Shown: positions 41,082 through 51,584 of the stretch, piece after piece
Layout: each line of letters starts with the position of its first letter
Position numbering within the stretch: position 1 is the stretch's first letter
Source: Maribacter sp.
GTDB lineage: Bacteria; Bacteroidota; Bacteroidia; Flavobacteriales; Flavobacteriaceae
Reading direction: 5' to 3'
DNA: 55,924 nt
Assembly (NCBI RefSeq): GCF_016744255.1
Contig: NZ_JADGES010000006.1
Coordinates: 1-55,924 of the forward strand
Notes under the pieces: model-generated
Databases searched by the model: none
Seen by the model: the letters and a program-made list of their open reading frames with translations, nothing else
Told to the model about the DNA's origin: nothing
Program-made: the position numbers and the translations under genes

Positions 41082-42866
41082 TTGAAAGCAAAAAGCCTAC
41101 TAAACCAAATTTCTCGTTTAGAATCGTCATTACGTGAATTTTCATTCGATGAATTAAGTTCAGAAGAAGCTTCTAAACTCAAAAAATCTTTCTCTTCGTT
41201 TAAGAAAAACTTAGAAACTAAGATTTTTAACCCGCTTATTCCTGCATATTATGAAGATGTAATTATGCAAGAAGCATCTGGAGGATCTATAGGAGAAGTA
41301 CCTCTAGAAAATACAAGTTCTGATGCCAATAAATTAATTGCAAATGTTAGCCATGAAATAAGAACTCCTTTAAACGGTATTATAGGTTTTGCAGATTTAT
41401 TAAAAGAAAGTAAGCTTAAAGAGAAGCAGCTAGAGCAAGTAAATGCTATACAGTCTGCATCGTACTCTTTAATGGAAATCATTAATGAATTATTAGAATA
41501 TTCTAAACTATCTGCAGGATTAGAGGAGTTTGAAAGTATTGATTTTAATTTTCATAGCCTCGTTAAAGACGCCACCTATCTATGCCAAACACTTATTGTT
41601 GACAAGAACATAAAATTACATACCAAATTAGATGAAGCAATTCCTGAAACACTCATAGGAGACCCATCGAAATTATCTCAAATCCTATTGAATATAATAG
41701 GTAATGCAATAAAATTTGTAGAAAAAGGAGAAATATGTTTAGAAATAACACTAAAAGAATTAATAAATAAAAAAGAATATGTAATTGAGTTTACTATTGC
41801 AGATACCGGTATTGGTATGTCTCAAAAACAATTGAGTCACATCTTTGACTCATATAAACAAGCAGAGCACGATACATTTACCAAGTATGGTGGTACTGGT
41901 TTAGGGTTAAGTATTGTAAAACAGATTATAGAAAAATTAGAAGGTAATATTCAAGTAGAAAGTAAAGAGGGTAGAGGTACCACTTTTAATTTTACACTTC
42001 CTTATATGGAAGGGGATGATTCTAAAGTCGTTAATAAAAATAAAAATACCATAAACCTTGAAAAAGGAAAACAACTGGTGAATGGCACCGGTATTTTAGT
42101 TTTTGAAGACAACCTATTAAATCAAAAATTGATTGAACAACGTCTAGGTTCATGGAATTGTAAAACTTACATAACAGATGATGCTAAATACGGACTTGAA
42201 ATATTAAAAACCAAGAAAATTGATGTTGTTTTAATGGACCTTAAAATGCCTGTAATGAATGGATTTGAGGTTACTGAAAAAATAAGAAATAGTAAGAGAA
42301 AAGATATTAATCAAGTACCAATAATTGCCCTATCAGCAGACTTTAGCGCAAGAGATGAACAGCTCTGTAAAGAATACGGAATTAACGATTTTATATTAAA
42401 ACCGTATAGTCCAGATGAATTATTAATAAAACTAGTTAAAAATAAAAATATGAAAGCAGTCTTAGCAGAAGAACCGCAGGTCTTTATTGAAGTACAGAAA
42501 GATTTAAATACTAAAAAGGATATAGACCTAACCCCAATCTGGAAAGAATGTATGGGGCAAATAGAATTATTAGATGAATTAATTCGTCTTTACAAGCAAA
42601 ACGCATTAGAATTTATTGGTGTTGTAAAAGTACATTTAACTAATAATTCTTTTGACGACGTTTCTCTTGCCGCACATAAAATAAAGGCAGGCTTAGCCAT
42701 GTTAGAAACAGAAAGCTTACTTGAAATTATTGTGCAAATTCAGAATAGTTGTAAGAACAATGTTGATAAAAAACATGTGGAGTTTTTATACAGCCGTTTT
42801 TTAATTGAGTATCCTAAAGTAGAACAAGAACTAGACGTTGCTTTAAATAAATTAAGAAAACAATAG
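41082..42866 (+). CDS. Soluble hybrid histidine kinase with receiver and HPt domains
   Basis: The product has 594 residues. No transmembrane segment or PAS domain is visible; an N-terminal helical region (1-80) precedes the kinase. HisKA has NVSHEIRTPLNGI with His91. The HATPase domain contains NIIGNAIKF, ADTGIGMS, YGGTGLGLSIV and GRGTTF. The receiver domain (about 335-455) has Asp386 in LMDLKMPVMNG. An HPt domain near the C-terminus has His532 in AAHKIKAGLAML. A His-Asp-His relay can therefore run within one protein to the separate receiver encoded next. The start is TTG; an in-frame stop lies just upstream. Confidence 0.92.
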   Translation: MKAKSLLNQISRLESSLREFSFDELSSEEASKLKKSFSSFKKNLETKIFNPLIPAYYEDVIMQEASGGSIGEVPLENTSSDANKLIANVSHEIRTPLNGIIGFADLLKESKLKEKQLEQVNAIQSASYSLMEIINELLEYSKLSAGLEEFESIDFNFHSLVKDATYLCQTLIVDKNIKLHTKLDEAIPETLIGDPSKLSQILLNIIGNAIKFVEKGEICLEITLKELINKKEYVIEFTIADTGIGMSQKQLSHIFDSYKQAEHDTFTKYGGTGLGLSIVKQIIEKLEGNIQVESKEGRGTTFNFTLPYMEGDDSKVVNKNKNTINLEKGKQLVNGTGILVFEDNLLNQKLIEQRLGSWNCKTYITDDAKYGLEILKTKKIDVVLMDLKMPVMNGFEVTEKIRNSKRKDINQVPIIALSADFSARDEQLCKEYGINDFILKPYSPDELLIKLVKNKNMKAVLAEEPQVFIEVQKDLNTKKDIDLTPIWKECMGQIELLDELIRLYKQNALEFIGVVKVHLTNNSFDDVSLAAHKIKAGLAMLETESLLEIIVQIQNSCKNNVDKKHVEFLYSRFLIEYPKVEQELDVALNKLRKQ

Positions 42867-42875
42867 AAACCAAGC

Positions 42876-43241
42876 ATGACCAAAAAAATATTGCTTGCAG
42901 ATGATGACCAACTACTTGTTTCTTTACTTCAATTTAGACTTAAAAAAGAGGGTTACCAAGTAACCTTTGTTAGTAACGGAAAGGAAGTAAAAGAATATTT
43001 AAGTAAAAGTATTCCAGATATTATTGTAAGCGATATAATGATGCCTTATTTCTCCGGAATTGAATTAGTAGATTTTGTGAGAAATGAACTTAAACTAAAC
43101 ATACCTATTATTATAATTTCCTCAGCAGGAAATGAAGAAAATGTTCTAAGTGCTTTTGAATTAGGAGCCAATGATTTTGTATCGAAACCTTTTAGTCCAA
43201 CCGAATTATTATTAAGAATTACTAAAGAATTGAATAAATAA
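42876..43241 (+). CDS. Single-domain response regulator
   Basis: The product has 121 residues and is only a receiver domain. LLADDDQLL gives the acidic pocket, Asp53 in VSDIMMP is the phosphoacceptor, ISSAG supplies the switch Ser, and Lys lies in VSKPFSPTE. With no output domain it must act through protein contact. It starts 9 bases after the hybrid kinase and ends 3 bases before the HEAT-repeat gene, so that protein is the most obvious target. It is probably the terminal acceptor of the phosphorelay. Confidence 0.93.
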   Translation: MTKKILLADDDQLLVSLLQFRLKKEGYQVTFVSNGKEVKEYLSKSIPDIIVSDIMMPYFSGIELVDFVRNELKLNIPIIIISSAGNEENVLSAFELGANDFVSKPFSPTELLLRITKELNK

Positions 43242-43244
43242 ACA

Positions 43245-45794
43245 TTGTTAAGTACAATTACGCGATATAGCCCCCAAGCGTTAATTACTGCGCCAAAAAT
43301 ACACACAGATCTACTATGGGACCTTTCCATATTATTTGTGAGCTTGGCAGCACTATATTTTATCGGTATATTCTACTTTAGGAACAAATTATCCTCTCAG
43401 AACAAAATTATAGACCAGAAAAAGAAAGATTTATCACCTATAATAAGTGAGTTTTTATTTTTTGAAGAAAATAGTTCTAAGGATGAAAAAACAAGCTATA
43501 TAAAGCTTAAAATAGAAATTAGACAATTTTTAAAGGATACATTTAACCGAAGAATTCTTTCCGAAGTCTTATTGGATCTTGGTAAAGATGTCAGTGGAAA
43601 AATACAAAAATCTCTTTTTACGCTTTACAAAGAATTAGAACTACATAAAGACGCTTATAAAAAATTAGAAAGTTGGCGTTGGCAACTTATATCGAAAGGT
43701 ATTTTTGAGCTTACACAAATGCATGTTGTAGAATCTTATGGGTTTATTACCAAATTTATTAATGATAAACGTGGTACTATCCGTAAACAAGCAGAGATAG
43801 CAACTGTTACCTTAAAACAGGAAGGTATTTCACATTTTCTAGACACAACCAAATATAGAATATCGGAGTGGCAGCAATTAAAACTGTTAGAAGTTCTTCG
43901 TAACCAAAAAGATTTTCAACCTCCAAAGTTTAAACAATGGCTAACATCTGGGAATAAACATGTGGTTCTTTTTTCTCTACGTTTAATTAAGCATTATAAC
44001 CAAAACGATGCAGAGTTATCTATTATAGAATTGGTGAAACATAAAAACATCCAAATAAGAGAAGAAGCTATACAATGTATAAAAGAATTTGCATTCCTAA
44101 ATGCTACAGAGACCTTAAAACTAGTTTTCTGGAACTCTTCGGCGAATACAAAAATTGCAATTTTAAGTGCATTAGCCGTAATAGGTACGGAAGACGATTT
44201 ACCATTTTTAAGTCAAATAGAATTCAAAGAGCGTAATTTTTCTGTTAAGAGCAAAGCTCTAAGTACCATTAATGCTATTGCTCCAGAAAGTATATTACCT
44301 ACAGAAGATATAGAAACTAATATACACCATAATATTCCGGAAGATCTAGAAACAGCGATTATGGAGGATAAAACTATAGATTCTAGTACCAAAACTATAC
44401 AAAATATGGATACCGATAAAAAAGGGCAAGAGGCTATAGAAATAGAAAACGTAAAAGAAGTCATTCAAGAAATTAGAAAAGAAGAACTAAAATCTACTAT
44501 TAAAGACCCCAACCCTAAAAAGGAGGATACTATAAATCTAGGTTTTCTTCCTATTATATCTAGCGAAGAACCTAAAGTTATCGAAAAACACAAGCCCTTA
44601 GATAATAATACAAGTAATGTTAAGGATATTATTGTAAACTTTCAAAAAGTAGTAGGTAAAAATATGAATGATTTAGAGGTGGTTTTTGAAATAGTAAAAC
44701 CTCTCCTAAACACAAGCGATACAAAAGAATTTAAATTAGATTTTCTTCCTCTTGTTACTCTTAAGAAAAAAGAAAACACTCCAAGTTTAGATAATTTCTA
44801 TAAACAAGTGCCAGATATAATTTATGATAATGAATTTTCTAAAGAGACAAAGAAAGAAACTGTAGTAAGCTTTATACCTGTTGTTTATGAAGAAGTAGCG
44901 TCCGTTAATAAACCCGTATCTATAGATGATATCGATGTTCTAAATATTAAAGAAATAGAAACTATTTATGAAGAAATAAAGATTACACCTAAGGAACCTG
45001 AAAAATCTAATAGTCATCCAGAAGTAATTAATTTAATGGAGTATGATGTAGATTTTACTACTGTATTACCTAAAAAAGAGGATAAGGAGGTTGTAAATAA
45101 GGACACCACTACGAATATTCTAAATAGTATTCCTAAACCCATTTTTTATAGTGATAAAGATTTAGAAATGATGGTAACCCTTGAAGATATGGTAACCTTT
45201 GGAGATGCAAGAGAAATTCCATTGTTACAAGAATTTTTAATAGAAGAAAACAATGATTCTATTAAAGAAAGAATTTTAGAAGTATTAGAAAAAATTCATC
45301 AAAAAAATGTTCAAAACATAGATGTTGATATGAAAGTAAAAGAAGAAGAATATATAAGTGAGGTAAACCTAATTGAAGAGTTATTTAGTAATTCTGATTC
45401 AGAGTCCAAACTTATATTACTAGATGAAATTGTTGCTGTCGGAGATAAAAAAGAGCTTAAACTTTTAAATAAGTTGTTAGGTGATCCAGATAATAATGTT
45501 CGACAAAAAGCTTTAATATGTATTGCTCAACTTCAAAATCAAATAAACATTAAAGAAGAAAAAGTGCTAAATCTAGTGTCTACAGAAGACACCCAGAGTA
45601 CGGAACCTATTCCTTTGGAATATGCTTTTTTAAACGATTATGAAACAGAATTAAAGAAAAACAATATACAAGCTGCTAAAACAATAGAAGAGTCTATGCC
45701 AATTGCTATTGATACCGTAAATAAGAAAGAAGCTTCTTTCTTGGAGCAATTTTATACCTTCTCCTCTAAACTGTTCGAAAGACTAAATGGATAG
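43245..45794 (+). CDS. Membrane-anchored HEAT-repeat protein
   Basis: The product has 849 residues. A transmembrane helix at about 24-46 (LLWDLSILFVSLAALYFIGI) is followed by a cytoplasmic region. HEAT-like helix pairs lie at about 175-350 (IRKQAEIATVTLKQEG; IREEAIQCIKEFAF) and again at about 640-780 (DNNVRQKALICIAQLQ). The middle (about 360-640) is acidic and of low complexity. HEAT arrays are protein-binding scaffolds. The TTG start is forced by the adjacent stop. I infer that it connects the receiver to the synthase encoded next. Confidence 0.82.
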   Translation: MLSTITRYSPQALITAPKIHTDLLWDLSILFVSLAALYFIGIFYFRNKLSSQNKIIDQKKKDLSPIISEFLFFEENSSKDEKTSYIKLKIEIRQFLKDTFNRRILSEVLLDLGKDVSGKIQKSLFTLYKELELHKDAYKKLESWRWQLISKGIFELTQMHVVESYGFITKFINDKRGTIRKQAEIATVTLKQEGISHFLDTTKYRISEWQQLKLLEVLRNQKDFQPPKFKQWLTSGNKHVVLFSLRLIKHYNQNDAELSIIELVKHKNIQIREEAIQCIKEFAFLNATETLKLVFWNSSANTKIAILSALAVIGTEDDLPFLSQIEFKERNFSVKSKALSTINAIAPESILPTEDIETNIHHNIPEDLETAIMEDKTIDSSTKTIQNMDTDKKGQEAIEIENVKEVIQEIRKEELKSTIKDPNPKKEDTINLGFLPIISSEEPKVIEKHKPLDNNTSNVKDIIVNFQKVVGKNMNDLEVVFEIVKPLLNTSDTKEFKLDFLPLVTLKKKENTPSLDNFYKQVPDIIYDNEFSKETKKETVVSFIPVVYEEVASVNKPVSIDDIDVLNIKEIETIYEEIKITPKEPEKSNSHPEVINLMEYDVDFTTVLPKKEDKEVVNKDTTTNILNSIPKPIFYSDKDLEMMVTLEDMVTFGDAREIPLLQEFLIEENNDSIKERILEVLEKIHQKNVQNIDVDMKVKEEEYISEVNLIEELFSNSDSESKLILLDEIVAVGDKKELKLLNKLLGDPDNNVRQKALICIAQLQNQINIKEEKVLNLVSTEDTQSTEPIPLEYAFLNDYETELKKNNIQAAKTIEESMPIAIDTVNKKEASFLEQFYTFSSKLFERLNG

Positions 45795-47217
45795 TGGTTT
45801 TTTTAATATCATTTTAGAATATATAAACATTGTTTTTTTCTTGTTTACGGTTATCCTATTCACTTTTTTTATTGCGATGGGATATTTATCTACAAGAAAT
45901 ACCATACACTACAAGAATAAAAATAGCTTCGGAGACATGTCTAAACTAATGGCATCTCCTTTGGCTCCAAGTATTACCATAATTGCGCCAGCATACAATG
46001 AAGGAATGACCATTGTAGAGAATATTAGATCTCTAATGTCATTAAAATATGTGAATTACGAAGTCATGGTGGTTAATGATGGTAGTAAAGATGATACCTT
46101 ACAAAAAATGATTGATGCCTATGACTTGGTTAAAATTGACCAAGAAATAGATCCCAATTGGAAGTCCAAACCTATACGTGGTATTTATAAATCTCCCCAA
46201 AGAGCATTTTCTAAACTTACCGTAATAGATAAAGAAAATGGGGGTAAGTCTGATGCCTTAAATACTGGTATGGCTCTATCTACCAATAAGTATGTTGGTT
46301 GTATAGATGTAGATTGCCTTTTGTTACCAGATGCCTTATTACATGTTGTAAAATCTTTTTATCAGCGTTCCGAAAAAAAGGTTATTGCTGTTGGTGGTGT
46401 TATTAGAGTAGCCAATTCTTGTGTCATTCAAGGTGGGCAATTAGAAGAAATTAAATTACCAACCAATTGGTTAGCAAGGTTTCAGTTATTAGAATATACA
46501 CGTTCTTTTATCTTAGGAAGAATGGCGTGGGGAAGAATAGATAGCTTGTTAATCATCTCGGGTGCTTTTGGTTTTTTTGACCGTGAATTAGCATTAGCTG
46601 TAGATGGTTATGATACCAATACCGTAGGAGAAGATATGGAAATTGTCTTTAAAATGAGAAGGTATATGCACGATCGTAAAATACCTTATACCATAGAATA
46701 TATTCCTGATCCTTTATGTTGGACCGAGGTTCCCGAAGATTTAAAAATACTTGTAAATCAAAGAGACAGATGGGCTAGAGGTAACCTAGAAACTCTTTTT
46801 AAGCACAAAGACATGTTCTTTAATCCAAAATACGGAAGATTGGGTATGCTTAGTTATCCGTATTGGTTTTTCTATGAATGGTTAGCTCCTATGTTAGAAT
46901 TTTTTGGAATGTTAACTATTTTCCTATTTTTTTATTTAGGTATAATTAATTGGGATTTCTTCATTGCTATTACTGCGACAATTTACGTGTTTTCTATTAT
47001 GTTTTCATTTTATGCTATTCTGTGGGATGTATACGCGTACAACGAATACAAAAAAACAAAAGACATTTTAATTCTAATGTTTTGTGCTATTGTAGAACCT
47101 ATAACTTTTCATCCAATAGTAGTATTTGCTGCTATTCGTGGTAATTATAAAAAACTATTTAAAATTAAATCTGGTTGGGGATCCCAAGTACGAAAAGGAT
47201 TCGCAAAAACAGCGTAA
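45787..47217 (+). CDS. Processive-type GT2 glycosyltransferase (polysaccharide synthase)
   Basis: The product has 476 residues. An N-terminal helix (about 8-33), a GT2 catalytic domain (about 60-345) and C-terminal helices (from about 355) match PgaC/hyaluronan-synthase topology. Motifs are APAYNEGMT, VNDGSKDDT, KENGGKSDALN, CIDVDC (Asp174 and Asp176), GED (Asp283) and QRDRW from Gln325 to Trp329, the QxxRW hallmark. It probably polymerises a beta-linked polysaccharide and translocates it across the inner membrane. It overlaps the HEAT gene by 8 bases. Confidence 0.92.
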   Translation: MDSGFFNIILEYINIVFFLFTVILFTFFIAMGYLSTRNTIHYKNKNSFGDMSKLMASPLAPSITIIAPAYNEGMTIVENIRSLMSLKYVNYEVMVVNDGSKDDTLQKMIDAYDLVKIDQEIDPNWKSKPIRGIYKSPQRAFSKLTVIDKENGGKSDALNTGMALSTNKYVGCIDVDCLLLPDALLHVVKSFYQRSEKKVIAVGGVIRVANSCVIQGGQLEEIKLPTNWLARFQLLEYTRSFILGRMAWGRIDSLLIISGAFGFFDRELALAVDGYDTNTVGEDMEIVFKMRRYMHDRKIPYTIEYIPDPLCWTEVPEDLKILVNQRDRWARGNLETLFKHKDMFFNPKYGRLGMLSYPYWFFYEWLAPMLEFFGMLTIFLFFYLGIINWDFFIAITATIYVFSIMFSFYAILWDVYAYNEYKKTKDILILMFCAIVEPITFHPIVVFAAIRGNYKKLFKIKSGWGSQVRKGFAKTA

Positions 47218-47218
47218 A

Positions 47219-49561
47219 ATGCAAGTAGAACAAAACATACCAAAAAATAATACTCCAAAAAAGCTAAAGGATTTTATTCCTTTAGTACTTACTTTTTTTG
47301 GGGCATTAATTGTATTGTCATTCTACCAAAATTTGAGCCTTTATTTAAGTGGGGTTTTAGATACTGTAATTAATAAAAGCTTCTTTTTACTATTATTAAA
47401 CCATACTGGTTATGTTGCTATAACCGCTCTTATTCTTTCCTTTTTGTTCAATTTTTTAGAGAATAAAAAACCGGAATTAGGCTATAAATCGGTGAAAATT
47501 ATTTTAGTCTTTTTAATCATTGTTGAGGCTCTTTTAATACAATATTATGTGCAGAATTATGAAATATTAGGAACCGATATTCTTAGCCTTTCTAAATCGG
47601 ACACAGTACTATTCTCTATAGCACCAGTAATTGGTCTTTTACTAATTTGCTTTAGTCTAAGTTATTACCTGCATAAGGTAACTTCTAGAGCGTATAGTAT
47701 TATAAGTAGAATGTACCCTTTTACCATAATACTCTTCAGCTTATTTCTTGCAACCTTATATGCCAGTAAAAAACCTGTTAATGAAAATAAAACCAACCAT
47801 TTAATTATTAGCTTAAAAGATTACATCTTAGAAAATAACACCTACGAAGGAACTTTAGAATACCCATTATTAAAAAGTAAATTGCCTAAAGATGTGTTAA
47901 CTCCATTATTAAACTCAGCTCCTAGAAAACCAAATATTCTATTTATAATTATAGAAGGTTTAGGCTCCGATTTTGTGGGTGCAAATGCAAAATACAAAGG
48001 GTTTACACCTTTCCTACAAAGTTTAACAACCAAAAGTATCTATTGGGAGAACCATTTAAGTAATAGTGGCGAAAGTTTTGCTACTATTCCAAATATCGTT
48101 GGCTCTCTACCCTTTGGAAAAGAAGGTTTTACGAATTTAGAGAACTATACTCACAGAAATACATTATATAGTGTTTTAAAGAAAAACGGTTATATAACTT
48201 CTTTTAATTATGGAGGAAATAGTGCTCTTAATTACATGGATAAATTTTTAGATGAAGAACGTGTAGATCGTATTATTGATAAACAAGATTTTGGTAAAAA
48301 TTATACGTTACAAGAGGAAGATGCTGCGGGTATTTCTTTGGGATATCCAGATACTGAAATGTATAAAAAATTTAATACAAGTTACTTTTCTAGTAAAAAA
48401 CCAAGATTCGATGTTTTACTAACACTCAGTTCTAAAAACCCTTTTTTAATTCCTGGTCAAGATATATGTATAGAAAAGGTAGAGAAAAAATTAGAACAAC
48501 TAAACCTAGATAAACGAGCAAAAAAACTGATTTCTAAAAACAAAGAATTATTAGCAAGTATGCTTTATACAGATAAAGCGTTAAAAGCTTTTATGGAATC
48601 TTACAAAAGTAAATCAGAATATAAGAATACCATCTTTATTATTACTGGTAGTCATAACACTACAGATCTTCCACAATCTAATAATTTACAGCGTTATAGA
48701 GTGCCTTTGCTTATTTATAGCCCATTACAGAAAGAGGCTAGAACAATACCATCTTTAACCTCGCATGCAGATATAGCTCCGAGCATACTGTCGTACCTAA
48801 ATGCAAATTATAAATTAAACGTACCGAATCAAAATGCTTGGCTTGGAGATGCTTTAATACACAAAAGTACTTTTAGTACTTCCAAGCAGATACCACTTAT
48901 TAAAAGACGTAATGCTATTGTAGATTATATTAAAGGTTCACATTTTATAAGTAAAAATAAGGTCTATGCATTAAATGAGAAATTAAACCTACAGATAGAA
49001 GAAGATGCCAACCTATCCAAAAAAATAGAACAAGATTTTAGTTTTTTTAAATCTGTAAATAACTACGTTACTAAAAACAATAAAATTATTCCAGATTCTT
49101 TATCCCTATACAACACAACTATAGCAGAATTATCTAAACAAGATAAAATATGGATAGAAAGTGTATTTAATGGAAAAGATTATGACAATGCATATATAAC
49201 AGCTAGAAACCTTTCTTTTAATAAGGATTGGGATCGTTCTTTATTATTATGCAATCATATTTTATCTAAAATACCAAGGCACTCGGATACAGAAATTTTG
49301 GTTGGCAGGTTGCACGCTTGGAAAAAGGAATACACTACTTCTATGTTGTTGTTAGAAGAAGTAGTACGAAAATACCCAACCTACGATGATGGCTATTCTG
49401 CACTGTTAGATACTTACTACTGGTCTAATGAAAATGAAAGAGCCATAGAACTTAAAGAAAAAATAGAAGAAAACAATATTGATTCTAAAGAAGTAATTTC
49501 CAAAGTATTAAGAGCAATTACCCTAGTCTCTAAACAAAAAAATGTAGAAACCCAATTCTAA
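47219..49561 (+). CDS. LtaS/sulfatase-like membrane protein with C-terminal TPRs
   Basis: The product has 780 residues. About five N-terminal helices (to about 190) are followed by an alkaline-phosphatase-superfamily domain (about 235-560). Glu246 (FIIIEGLGSD) fits the first metal ligand. Where relatives carry a nucleophile Thr and an Asp-His pair, this protein has Ser286 (SGESFATIP) and Ser478-His479 (TGSHN). TPR-like helices occupy about 680-775. Relatives transfer phosphoglycerol or similar groups to envelope polymers. The ATG at 47219 is 1 base after the synthase stop codon; the longer ORF upstream overlaps it. Confidence 0.85.
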   Translation: MQVEQNIPKNNTPKKLKDFIPLVLTFFGALIVLSFYQNLSLYLSGVLDTVINKSFFLLLLNHTGYVAITALILSFLFNFLENKKPELGYKSVKIILVFLIIVEALLIQYYVQNYEILGTDILSLSKSDTVLFSIAPVIGLLLICFSLSYYLHKVTSRAYSIISRMYPFTIILFSLFLATLYASKKPVNENKTNHLIISLKDYILENNTYEGTLEYPLLKSKLPKDVLTPLLNSAPRKPNILFIIIEGLGSDFVGANAKYKGFTPFLQSLTTKSIYWENHLSNSGESFATIPNIVGSLPFGKEGFTNLENYTHRNTLYSVLKKNGYITSFNYGGNSALNYMDKFLDEERVDRIIDKQDFGKNYTLQEEDAAGISLGYPDTEMYKKFNTSYFSSKKPRFDVLLTLSSKNPFLIPGQDICIEKVEKKLEQLNLDKRAKKLISKNKELLASMLYTDKALKAFMESYKSKSEYKNTIFIITGSHNTTDLPQSNNLQRYRVPLLIYSPLQKEARTIPSLTSHADIAPSILSYLNANYKLNVPNQNAWLGDALIHKSTFSTSKQIPLIKRRNAIVDYIKGSHFISKNKVYALNEKLNLQIEEDANLSKKIEQDFSFFKSVNNYVTKNNKIIPDSLSLYNTTIAELSKQDKIWIESVFNGKDYDNAYITARNLSFNKDWDRSLLLCNHILSKIPRHSDTEILVGRLHAWKKEYTTSMLLLEEVVRKYPTYDDGYSALLDTYYWSNENERAIELKEKIEENNIDSKEVISKVLRAITLVSKQKNVETQF

Positions 49562-50784
49562 TGCACCTATTAAAAACATACATTACTTTATTACTATACT
49601 TTTTTTGCATGTGTATTTCTGCACAAGAAAGTGCATACTCGGGAGACCCAGATACTTCTTTCATTACTGCTAGAGATTTGGCTTTCGCAGGAAACCGTAC
49701 CGAAGCAAGAGATACATTATATCATATTTTAAGTGTTTACCCCGATTATACGGATGTTCGTATCCTTTTAGCCAAAACGTATACATGGGATGCAAAATAT
49801 GATGATGCTAGAAAACACTTTAATAAAATAACCACCAAAGAAAAGGGAATTAAAGAAGTTTGGGTTGCTGCGATTAATAATGAGTTGTATTCCGAAAATT
49901 ATGCCACCGCTTTAGGTTTATCTAACAAAGCATTAAATTATATAGAAGAAGACATAGACCTTCTAAAACAGAAGCAATATGCTATGGATGGAATAACCGG
50001 TGAATCGAGTATAGAAGAAGATACGTCCGAAGCAAAACAGGAAGAACCATTGCGTAACCAAATTGGTATTTCTAATAGTTTCGAGATTTTCGATGTGGCA
50101 TATGACCCCATGTTTTATTCCAGTATAGAATATAAAAGAGAAACGCTTTCAGGACCTATTATTCCTAGAATTAATTATAGTAACAGGTTTAACACGCATG
50201 GTTTACAATACGAGTTAGATTTTTACCCCAAGCTATCCAAAATGTTTTATGGGTATTTAAATTATGGTTTTTCTAACGCTTCTATATATTCTAAGCACAG
50301 GGCAGGAGTAGAGGTATATGCAAATTATCCTAAAAATATGGAGCTATCTTTAGGAATACGATATATGGATTTTAAAACTATAAAAGCCACTATTATGACA
50401 GCTAGTGTAGGTTTATATAAAGGTAACTATTACTTTTCAGCTCGTCCATATATTACATCTATAAGCGGTAAAAATTTAGGGTTTTCAGGAACAGCACTTG
50501 CTAGAAAGTATCTTAGAGATAAGCAAAACTATCTTGGAGTAACTGCCGTAGTTGGATACTCATCAGAATTAAAACAATTACGTAATGCACAAGACACCTT
50601 ATTGGCTGAAACCGTATTTTATGTAGAGTCGCAACAACTGTTATTCGAATATCAATTCACAGGAAAAAAGAACCCTAATATTTATAAGGCAAACTTAGGA
50701 ATTGCGCATCAAGAACTTGTTTTTAACCCTGGGAAATTCTTTTGGTCTGTGTCGGCAGGTATAACATATCAGGTCAAATTCTAA
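49561..50784 (+). CDS. YaiO-family outer membrane barrel with N-terminal TPRs
   Basis: The product has 407 residues. A signal peptide (to about residue 21, ISAQ) precedes TPR-like helices (about 30-130: DLAFAGNRTEARDTLYHIL; DARKHFNKITT). From about 160 to the C-terminal Phe there are alternating strands typical of an outer-membrane barrel (ELSLGIRYMDF; FFWSVSAGITYQVKF). YaiO and PgaA-type proteins combine TPRs and a barrel to export polysaccharide. The start overlaps the upstream stop (TAATG). It is the last gene of the operon. Confidence 0.88.
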   Translation: MHLLKTYITLLLYFFCMCISAQESAYSGDPDTSFITARDLAFAGNRTEARDTLYHILSVYPDYTDVRILLAKTYTWDAKYDDARKHFNKITTKEKGIKEVWVAAINNELYSENYATALGLSNKALNYIEEDIDLLKQKQYAMDGITGESSIEEDTSEAKQEEPLRNQIGISNSFEIFDVAYDPMFYSSIEYKRETLSGPIIPRINYSNRFNTHGLQYELDFYPKLSKMFYGYLNYGFSNASIYSKHRAGVEVYANYPKNMELSLGIRYMDFKTIKATIMTASVGLYKGNYYFSARPYITSISGKNLGFSGTALARKYLRDKQNYLGVTAVVGYSSELKQLRNAQDTLLAETVFYVESQQLLFEYQFTGKKNPNIYKANLGIAHQELVFNPGKFFWSVSAGITYQVKF

Positions 50785-50987: not shown

Positions 50988-51086
50988 ATGCTTTATGACA
51001 CCTACGGAGAGGAATACTTAGCATTCCTTCAAGATTTAAACGAAATATTAAGTATTAATGAATTGGTAGAATTAGACTTTATGTAG
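50988..51086 (+). CDS. Micro-ORF 1 of a tandem paralogous pair
   Basis: The 32-residue product contains EEYLAFLQDLNEIL, predicted to be an amphipathic helix. It is clearly related to the next small ORF (YLSFIQNLNEIL), showing a tandem duplication. The ATG at 50988 is preferred; a longer ORF starting with GTG at 50838 adds an implausible leader. The family is unknown. Small helical peptides of this type could be membrane- or protein-binding regulators. Confidence 0.5.
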   Translation: MLYDTYGEEYLAFLQDLNEILSINELVELDFM

Positions 51087-51132: not shown

Positions 51133-51234
51133 ATGGCAAACAAAAATCAAGACAACACAGCTTACTTAAGCTTCATTCAAAATTTAAATGAAATTTTAGT
51201 AGATTATAATATCAATAAACTTACATACTCTTAG
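51133..51234 (+). CDS. Micro-ORF 2 of a tandem paralogous pair
   Basis: The 33-residue product contains TAYLSFIQNLNEIL, which aligns with YLAFLQDLNEIL of the previous ORF. Third-position and conservative differences between them (GAT/AAT, AAC/AAT, ATA/ATT) suggest coding-level constraint. A terminator follows at 51264. Function is unknown. Confidence 0.55.
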   Translation: MANKNQDNTAYLSFIQNLNEILVDYNINKLTYS

Positions 51235-51263
51235 TTATAGGGTACAAATCAATAATAATATAA

Positions 51264-51295
51264 GAGGCTGTCTAAAAAGGCAGCTTCTTTTTTTT
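51264..51295 (+). terminator. Terminator after the micro-ORFs
   Basis: GAGGCTG and CAGCTTC pair (with one G-T) around a 10-base loop and are followed by eight T residues. The same sequence also serves as the left terminal repeat of the possible insertion element. Confidence 0.7.
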
Positions 51296-51326: not shown

Positions 51327-51584
51327 ATGATCAGAAAAGTAGTATGGAAGACCAATAATCAAGACCAGTTGAGTCCGCTTCCACCCAGTTATGATGATTT
51401 GGCACCCAAGAATCATCCCGTACGTATAGTTAATTAATTTTAGATTCGGTTAGATTTAAGCGTTTTAGAGAAGACCCATGGCTCACAACCTAAAAAAGGT
51501 AACCCTAAGAGCGTAAAAATTTCCTTGCTTTTTTACTCAATCTATTAATTGAAAACCAGAATTTATCTAATAAGCCAAAACTAA
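51327..51584 (+). pseudogene. Degenerate IS1182-family transposase N-terminus
   Basis: The frame opens with KVVWKTNNQDQLSPLPPSYD and LAPKNHPVRIVN, the typical beginning of IS1182 transposases (NQ.QL..LPPSLD.LIP..H.VR.VN). It then has stops at 51435 and soon after, followed by RLDLSVLEKTHG, matching the next conserved segment. The catalytic domain is absent. Confidence 0.75.

Follow-up and report, generated by a model that had tools for sequence, protein, structure and literature searches.

A receiver-HEAT-GT2 triad in a candidate exopolysaccharide operon of Maribacter and its relatives in Bacteroidota

Known synthase-dependent systems and the Maribacter locus

The pgaABCD system of E. coli combines a processive family 2 glycosyltransferase (GT2), PgaC, with a TPR-plus-barrel exporter layout and an accessory inner-membrane regulatory subunit, PgaD. 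Its synthase is controlled post-translationally; c-di-GMP acts as the switch for PgaCD as well as for BcsA (PMC8461298). In the bcsABC systems with BcsG, solved BcsA-BcsG complexes pair an alkaline-phosphatase-superfamily membrane protein with the synthase. The yaiP/yaiO locus of E. coli holds a GT2 and a YaiO barrel together, and proteins of the LtaS/VP1736 family join a TM bundle to a sulfatase-fold domain. An operon survey of biofilm machineries makes no mention of HEAT, YaiO or Bacteroid- (PMC7112194), and a search of openly accessible journal papers returned no description of the receiver (REC)-HEAT-GT2 module reported here.

The window analysed, a stretch of 55,924 nucleotides from Maribacter sp., carries six plus-strand ORFs at 41082-50784, separated by successive gaps of 9, 3, -8, 1 and -1 bases, exactly as the first-pass annotation had it. 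The first (41082..42866, TTG start) encodes a soluble hybrid histidine kinase of 594 aa with HisKA (His91), HATPase, REC (Asp386) and HPt (His532) domains, the first three well above their Pfam cut-offs. It is followed by a stand-alone receiver of 121 aa (42876..43241; PF00072, 95 bits) with a single REC domain, no output domain, and Asp53, Ser82 and Lys104 in place. The third gene (43245..45794) encodes a membrane HEAT protein of 849 aa, recognised by repeats above cut-off (HEAT_2, 49.5 bits) and by an alpha-solenoid in its predicted structure. Next come a processive GT2 synthase of 476 aa (45787..47217) with DxD, GED and QRDRW motifs and a channel-forming TM layout, an LtaS/sulfatase-fold membrane protein with C-terminal TPRs (47219..49561; PF00884, 89.8 bits), and a YaiO-type outer-membrane barrel of 407 aa with N-terminal TPRs (49561..50784; PF19413, 209.9 bits, and TIGR04390, 191.1 bits, both above cut-off). 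Pfam and NCBIfam thus bear out the earlier domain calls for the kinase, the receiver, the HEAT protein, the GT2 with QxxRW and the YaiO barrel; the description of the LtaS-like protein as an enzyme did not stand. Pfam calls no TPRs in the latter; they are recognised by the homology of its C-terminus to the N-terminal TPRs of YaiO (E 3e-10).

The locus differs from each of its described relatives. Its GT2 is 29% identical to E. coli PgaC over 300 residues and scores 145.2 bits, far below the PgaC/IcaA equivalog cut-off of 422.3. Neither a PgaB deacetylase nor a two-TM PgaD is found among the six genes, the exporter is unrelated by sequence, REC and HEAT genes adjoin the synthase, and the genome is without GGDEF. 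The GT2 model (pLDDT 88.8) resembles BcsA (Z ~25), but PilZ is absent from the GT2 and from the genome, there is no BcsB or BcsC, and the LtaS-fold partner, comparable in its pairing to BcsG, is degenerate. The closest membrane-synthase fold is that of hyaluronan synthase (Chlorella virus, Xenopus; 8snc, Z 28.6, 397 residues, rmsd 3.3), at an identity of 16-19%, and this likeness of fold does not imply the product. E. coli YaiO (257 aa) has no BLASTP similarity to the YaiO of the window, and its locus contains no REC or HEAT gene but a putative deacetylase, YaiS. Compared with LtaS and VP1736, the window protein has lost the catalytic His and Asp, has gained a TPR tail and is linked to an exopolysaccharide-type synthase. 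We class the locus as a variant of the synthase-dependent polysaccharide systems.

The REC-HEAT-GT2 triad and its probable phosphorelay

The sample comprised 160 loci, all from Bacteroidota and picked by GT2 or HEAT similarity: 80 from whole genomes and 80 from named genome contigs of Maribacter, Zobellia, Cellulophaga, Eudoraea, Pricia and their kin. The HEAT gene lies directly 5' of the GT2 gene, with a gap of at most 15 bases, in 151 of the 160 loci. In 148 of 161 systems a REC gene lies no more than four genes away from the GT2 (at position -2 in 131), and in the whole-genome set it accompanies 72 of 81 systems and 17 of 19 families. No neighbouring REC is found in 13 systems; a contig end could account for about five of them, but not for the other eight or so. 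Since the window's genome contains 36 REC domains in 3.6 Mb, finding one next to HEAT-GT2 so regularly is far beyond chance. Likewise, all six genes are present in 71 of the 80 named relatives, so the six-gene set is not a chance assembly. The conserved unit, however, is not the six genes proposed earlier. It is a triad of stand-alone REC, one-TM HEAT solenoid and processive GT2, whose synteny recurs across the phylum, well beyond close strains, whereas the kinase, LtaS-like and YaiO genes are accessory: they vary among systems and may stand apart or be fused. No natural fusion of REC with HEAT was seen. In Maribacter litopenaei HL-LV01 (L177) the operon is in fragments, with split kinase, LtaS-like and YaiO genes and no intact REC listed; the operon may have decayed there, or the chromosome sequence may contain errors.

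The phospho-Asp of the receiver (Asp53) is conserved in 140 of 144 sequences, Ser/Thr82 in 98% and Lys104 in 99%; among the four RECs without the Asp, one adjoins a PAS-GGDEF-EAL gene and one, located downstream, may not be cognate. In a tree of the cognate RECs and 20 RECs that the window's genome encodes, one group of 33 rows (support 96/86) unites 30 cognate RECs from divergent families with three others that also lie at HEAT-GT2 loci, and none of the 20 own-genome paralogues falls inside it. In most of the sample, the REC has thus been passed on together with the module. Cognate RECs from the deepest lineages branch outside this group, with poor resolution. Partial correlations of distance matrices give 0.57 for REC-HEAT versus -0.14 for REC-GT2 among near relatives, and 0.22 versus 0.24 among far relatives, so that a REC-HEAT-GT2 chain fits the near relatives only.

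The first-pass annotation had also proposed a phosphorelay as input, and this proposal gained strength from the relatives. In the window all phosphorelay residues are present: HisKA His91, internal REC Asp386, HPt His532 (codon 42675..42677, motif AAHKIKAG) and Asp53 of the terminal REC. Within the Maribacter/Zobellia clade, 69 loci have a complete HisKA-REC-HPt kinase gene 5' of REC. An HPt-only gene takes its place in 17 loci (136-252 aa, some keeping an N-terminal segment) and a REC-HPt gene in five, four of them in this clade (one cut by a contig end) and the fifth, L064, elsewhere. On a GT2+HEAT+REC tree, the Fitch count gives at least four losses of the kinase core in the clade. The HPt domain of the window copy falls under the Pfam cut-off (19.4 versus 24.6 bits), yet the HPt His is kept in 90 of the 90 upstream genes that cover the site; of the 91 aligned, 22 show a gap at HisKA. 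The retention of HPt beside REC after kinase loss argues that selection keeps it there, as expected of an HPt that feeds the REC and can be served by kinases in trans. As read from these sequences, the steps of the phosphorelay up to the REC appear well supported.

The HEAT protein was modelled from 92 sequences. A long TM/juxtamembrane helix (residues 21-71) leads into an alpha-solenoid that extends to 345; residues 21-345 are very confident (pLDDT of the N-domain 95-98), 345-630 are disordered and a second HEAT block occupies 637-778. The short form of other families (about 355 aa, some with an extra N-terminus) corresponds to the first part alone. Fold searches brought up designed armadillo and alphaRep proteins and importin-alpha, all of them generic solenoids, and nothing functional, and the modelled N-domain looks like a pure binding solenoid. 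In one relative the HEAT protein (L071:10176-11618) has an N-terminal extension with a weak, sub-cut-off LysM match, and other HEAT copies of that family (f8) have extensions resembling signal peptides. Some scaffolds may therefore also sense the periplasm.

Taken together, these observations make it somewhat probable, in our judgement, that the locus encodes an exopolysaccharide machine of the synthase-dependent kind and that the phosphorelay controls its synthase through REC and HEAT. The soluble hybrid kinase, or in some relatives other kinases in trans, would pass phosphate from His to Asp to His through the HPt to the stand-alone REC. Phospho-REC would then dock on the cytoplasmic solenoid of the one-TM HEAT protein, which would sit beside the GT2 and switch or assemble it, in the way that PilZ or PgaD mediates control by c-di-GMP in other systems. 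The GT2 would make and extrude a beta-linked polymer. The passage of this polymer through the periplasm and the outer membrane would fall to the YaiO barrel with its TPRs and to the LtaS-fold protein with its TM bundle and TPRs, the latter acting in the window's clade as a scaffold that has lost polymer modification. The REC-HEAT contact, the gating of GT2 and polymer export are steps that we infer.

The leading alternative, which we regard as unlikely, gives the REC a different target, such as a regulator whose gene is not in the operon, and explains its position here by co-expression only, with HEAT as a constitutive assembly factor for GT2 and the synthase under transcriptional control. Single-domain receivers often shuttle phosphate, and changes in expression could suffice to regulate the operon. 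Against this, the RECs are orthologous and stand directly 5' of HEAT in most of the phylum. Moreover, in some lineages the REC is exchanged for GGDEF beside HEAT-GT2, so that the regulators recurring at this place are signal-level ones and not transcription factors.

The synthase product, the LtaS-like partner and the operon end

The nature of the product bears on a second and quite unlikely alternative, namely a cell-attached glycan or glycolipid, with a GT2 that adds one or few sugars and a YaiO with another role. To our knowledge, the export function of the YaiO family has not been settled experimentally, which leaves room for such a role. However, the QxxRW motif is present in all 161 GT2 copies, together with a channel-forming TM layout and a HAS/BcsA fold. 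The TPR-barrel partners also speak for export of a polymer, and one lineage has a 941-aa TPR-YaiO protein with a PgaA-like layout. Nine sampled systems encode the LtaS-like protein and the GT2 as a single fusion (1134-1270 aa), which is Rosetta-stone evidence that the two act together. Members of a family of about 395 aa are encoded next to the synthase, YaiO or LtaS-like gene in further families of Bacteroidota (L064:5343-6530, L131:11865-13049, L079:11270-12460 and other loci); the two members scanned have no Pfam match, and the family may contribute another component for export or modification.

The first-pass annotation had taken the LtaS-like protein to be an enzyme. Its sulfatase-fold domain follows a TM bundle and aligns to VP1736 (3lxq) and LtaS (2w5q), but the metal-binding and catalytic residue set of LtaS (Glu, Thr/Ser, His, Asp-His) is incomplete in the window copy, where the motifs are IEGLGS, GESF, SKNPF and TGSHN versus VEGLGR, GRTF, THEPF and TGDHR in active relatives. 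Glu246 and His479 are kept; GES replaces GRT at 284-286, Lys406 replaces His and Ser478 replaces Asp. We take the roles of these residues, including the catalytic His and Asp, to be those known for LtaS. In a tree of 103 copies, 36 degenerate ones including that of the window form one clade (support 100) nested among active copies, and two more degenerate rows lie outside it. The degenerate catalytic domain evolves under purifying selection (dN/dS 0.10-0.22, with dS near saturation). In Kriegella sp. EG-1 (L204) and a Cellulophaga MAG (L214) the catalytic domain is gone, while the TM bundle and TPRs are kept. Loss of the catalytic residues, purifying selection and these domain deletions suggest that the LtaS-like protein is probably a scaffold or export subunit, an enzyme turned scaffold.

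Alternatively, the transferase could still be active after a rearrangement of its active site and could add phosphoglycerol or phosphoethanolamine to the polymer. That range of dN/dS would fit such a reading, as would the remaining Glu246, the His of the Asp-His pair and the Ser at the nucleophile site. Nevertheless, we consider it improbable. His, Asp and GRT were lost together in the 36-row clade, where the nucleophile position varies (S, T, G, N, D), and two relatives lack the catalytic domain altogether. The window's genome contains no LtaS-like paralogue. A GDPD-like gene follows yaiO in 30 of 39 loci with an active copy versus none of 34 with a degenerate one (few independent events), which hints at a glycerophosphodiester added to the polymer in the active relatives. 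This gene (L112:3920-5467 and 33 other loci) lies on the opposite strand and has a sub-cut-off ILEI match.

Downstream of yaiO, two plus-strand microproteins lie in tandem and share the core YLxFxxxLNEIL: A (50988..51086, 32 aa), found in 82 of 94 clade loci with a median dN/dS of 0.041, and its paralogue B (51133..51234, 33 aa), found in 43 clade loci with a median of 0.113. Neither has a Pfam or NCBIfam match. Microprotein A occurs in the 12 of 60 relatives with a long HEAT gene (plus one weak match) and is a probable additional gene of the operon unit. In some relatives a gene is inserted after yaiO and the microproteins stay beside a sigma-factor gene, so they may form a unit of their own. 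That sigma-factor gene, which adjoins the operon in relatives, is not next to it in the window. Just 3' of microprotein B, a terminator-like hairpin followed by a T run is found on the plus strand (51262..51289; one found in the consensus scan, 0.5 expected). No Rfam element was detected in the region. A short ORF at 51327-51450, between the operon and a TlpA-like gene, presumably represents the start of an IS1182-type transposase, to judge by eye.

Receiver and GGDEF genes beside HEAT-GT2 across Bacteroidota

The earlier annotation had assumed that c-di-GMP signalling is scarce in these bacteria and that the receiver acts instead of it. The premise holds for the window's genome, where neither GGDEF nor PilZ was found (assembly 99.88% complete). 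GGDEF occurs in 157 of 296 sampled Bacteroidota genomes; among the matches listed, only two are in the window's class, where GGDEF is thus nearly absent and the triad is common. It does not hold for deep relatives, which carry GGDEF genes beside HEAT-GT2. In one deep family a GGDEF protein with two receivers replaces the lone REC, in two others PAS-GGDEF-EAL or GGDEF-EAL genes lie 5' of REC, and in another the REC is missing and a CHASE3-GAF-PAS-GGDEF gene stands 3' of GT2. The receiver proteins of 520-595 aa in one deep family are not PorX, since they combine REC and GGDEF domains. These associations speak against a clean, phylum-wide replacement of c-di-GMP. At the same time, the swapping of signal sources beside a constant HEAT-GT2 pair supports this pair as the regulated core.

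It is very improbable that the module responds to c-di-GMP in general (bound by HEAT or GT2, with the REC as a modifier and an unrecognised nucleotide route in Flavobacteriaceae), for although GGDEF or EAL genes adjoin the HEAT-GT2 core in four deep families, the triad is common in a class where GGDEF matches are nearly absent from the 296-genome sample, and it is present in a genome that has neither GGDEF nor PilZ.

Returning to control through REC and HEAT, we tentatively extend it to the phylum: a phospho-receiver would bind a dedicated HEAT adaptor and gate the GT2 after translation, in place of the c-di-GMP receptors (PilZ, PgaD) of Proteobacteria, and the same adaptor would take receiver or diguanylate-cyclase input depending on the lineage. 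The module also offers two natural experiments, a deletion series in which the kinase is lost and the HPt kept, and a conversion of enzyme to scaffold in the LtaS-like partner. REC-HEAT-GT2 is a concrete, conserved candidate for the control of biofilm or surface polymers in Bacteroidota without c-di-GMP. Its conserved co-inheritance suggests that in much of this phylum a surface polysaccharide is switched on by direct phosphorylation signalling, as opposed to c-di-GMP elsewhere.
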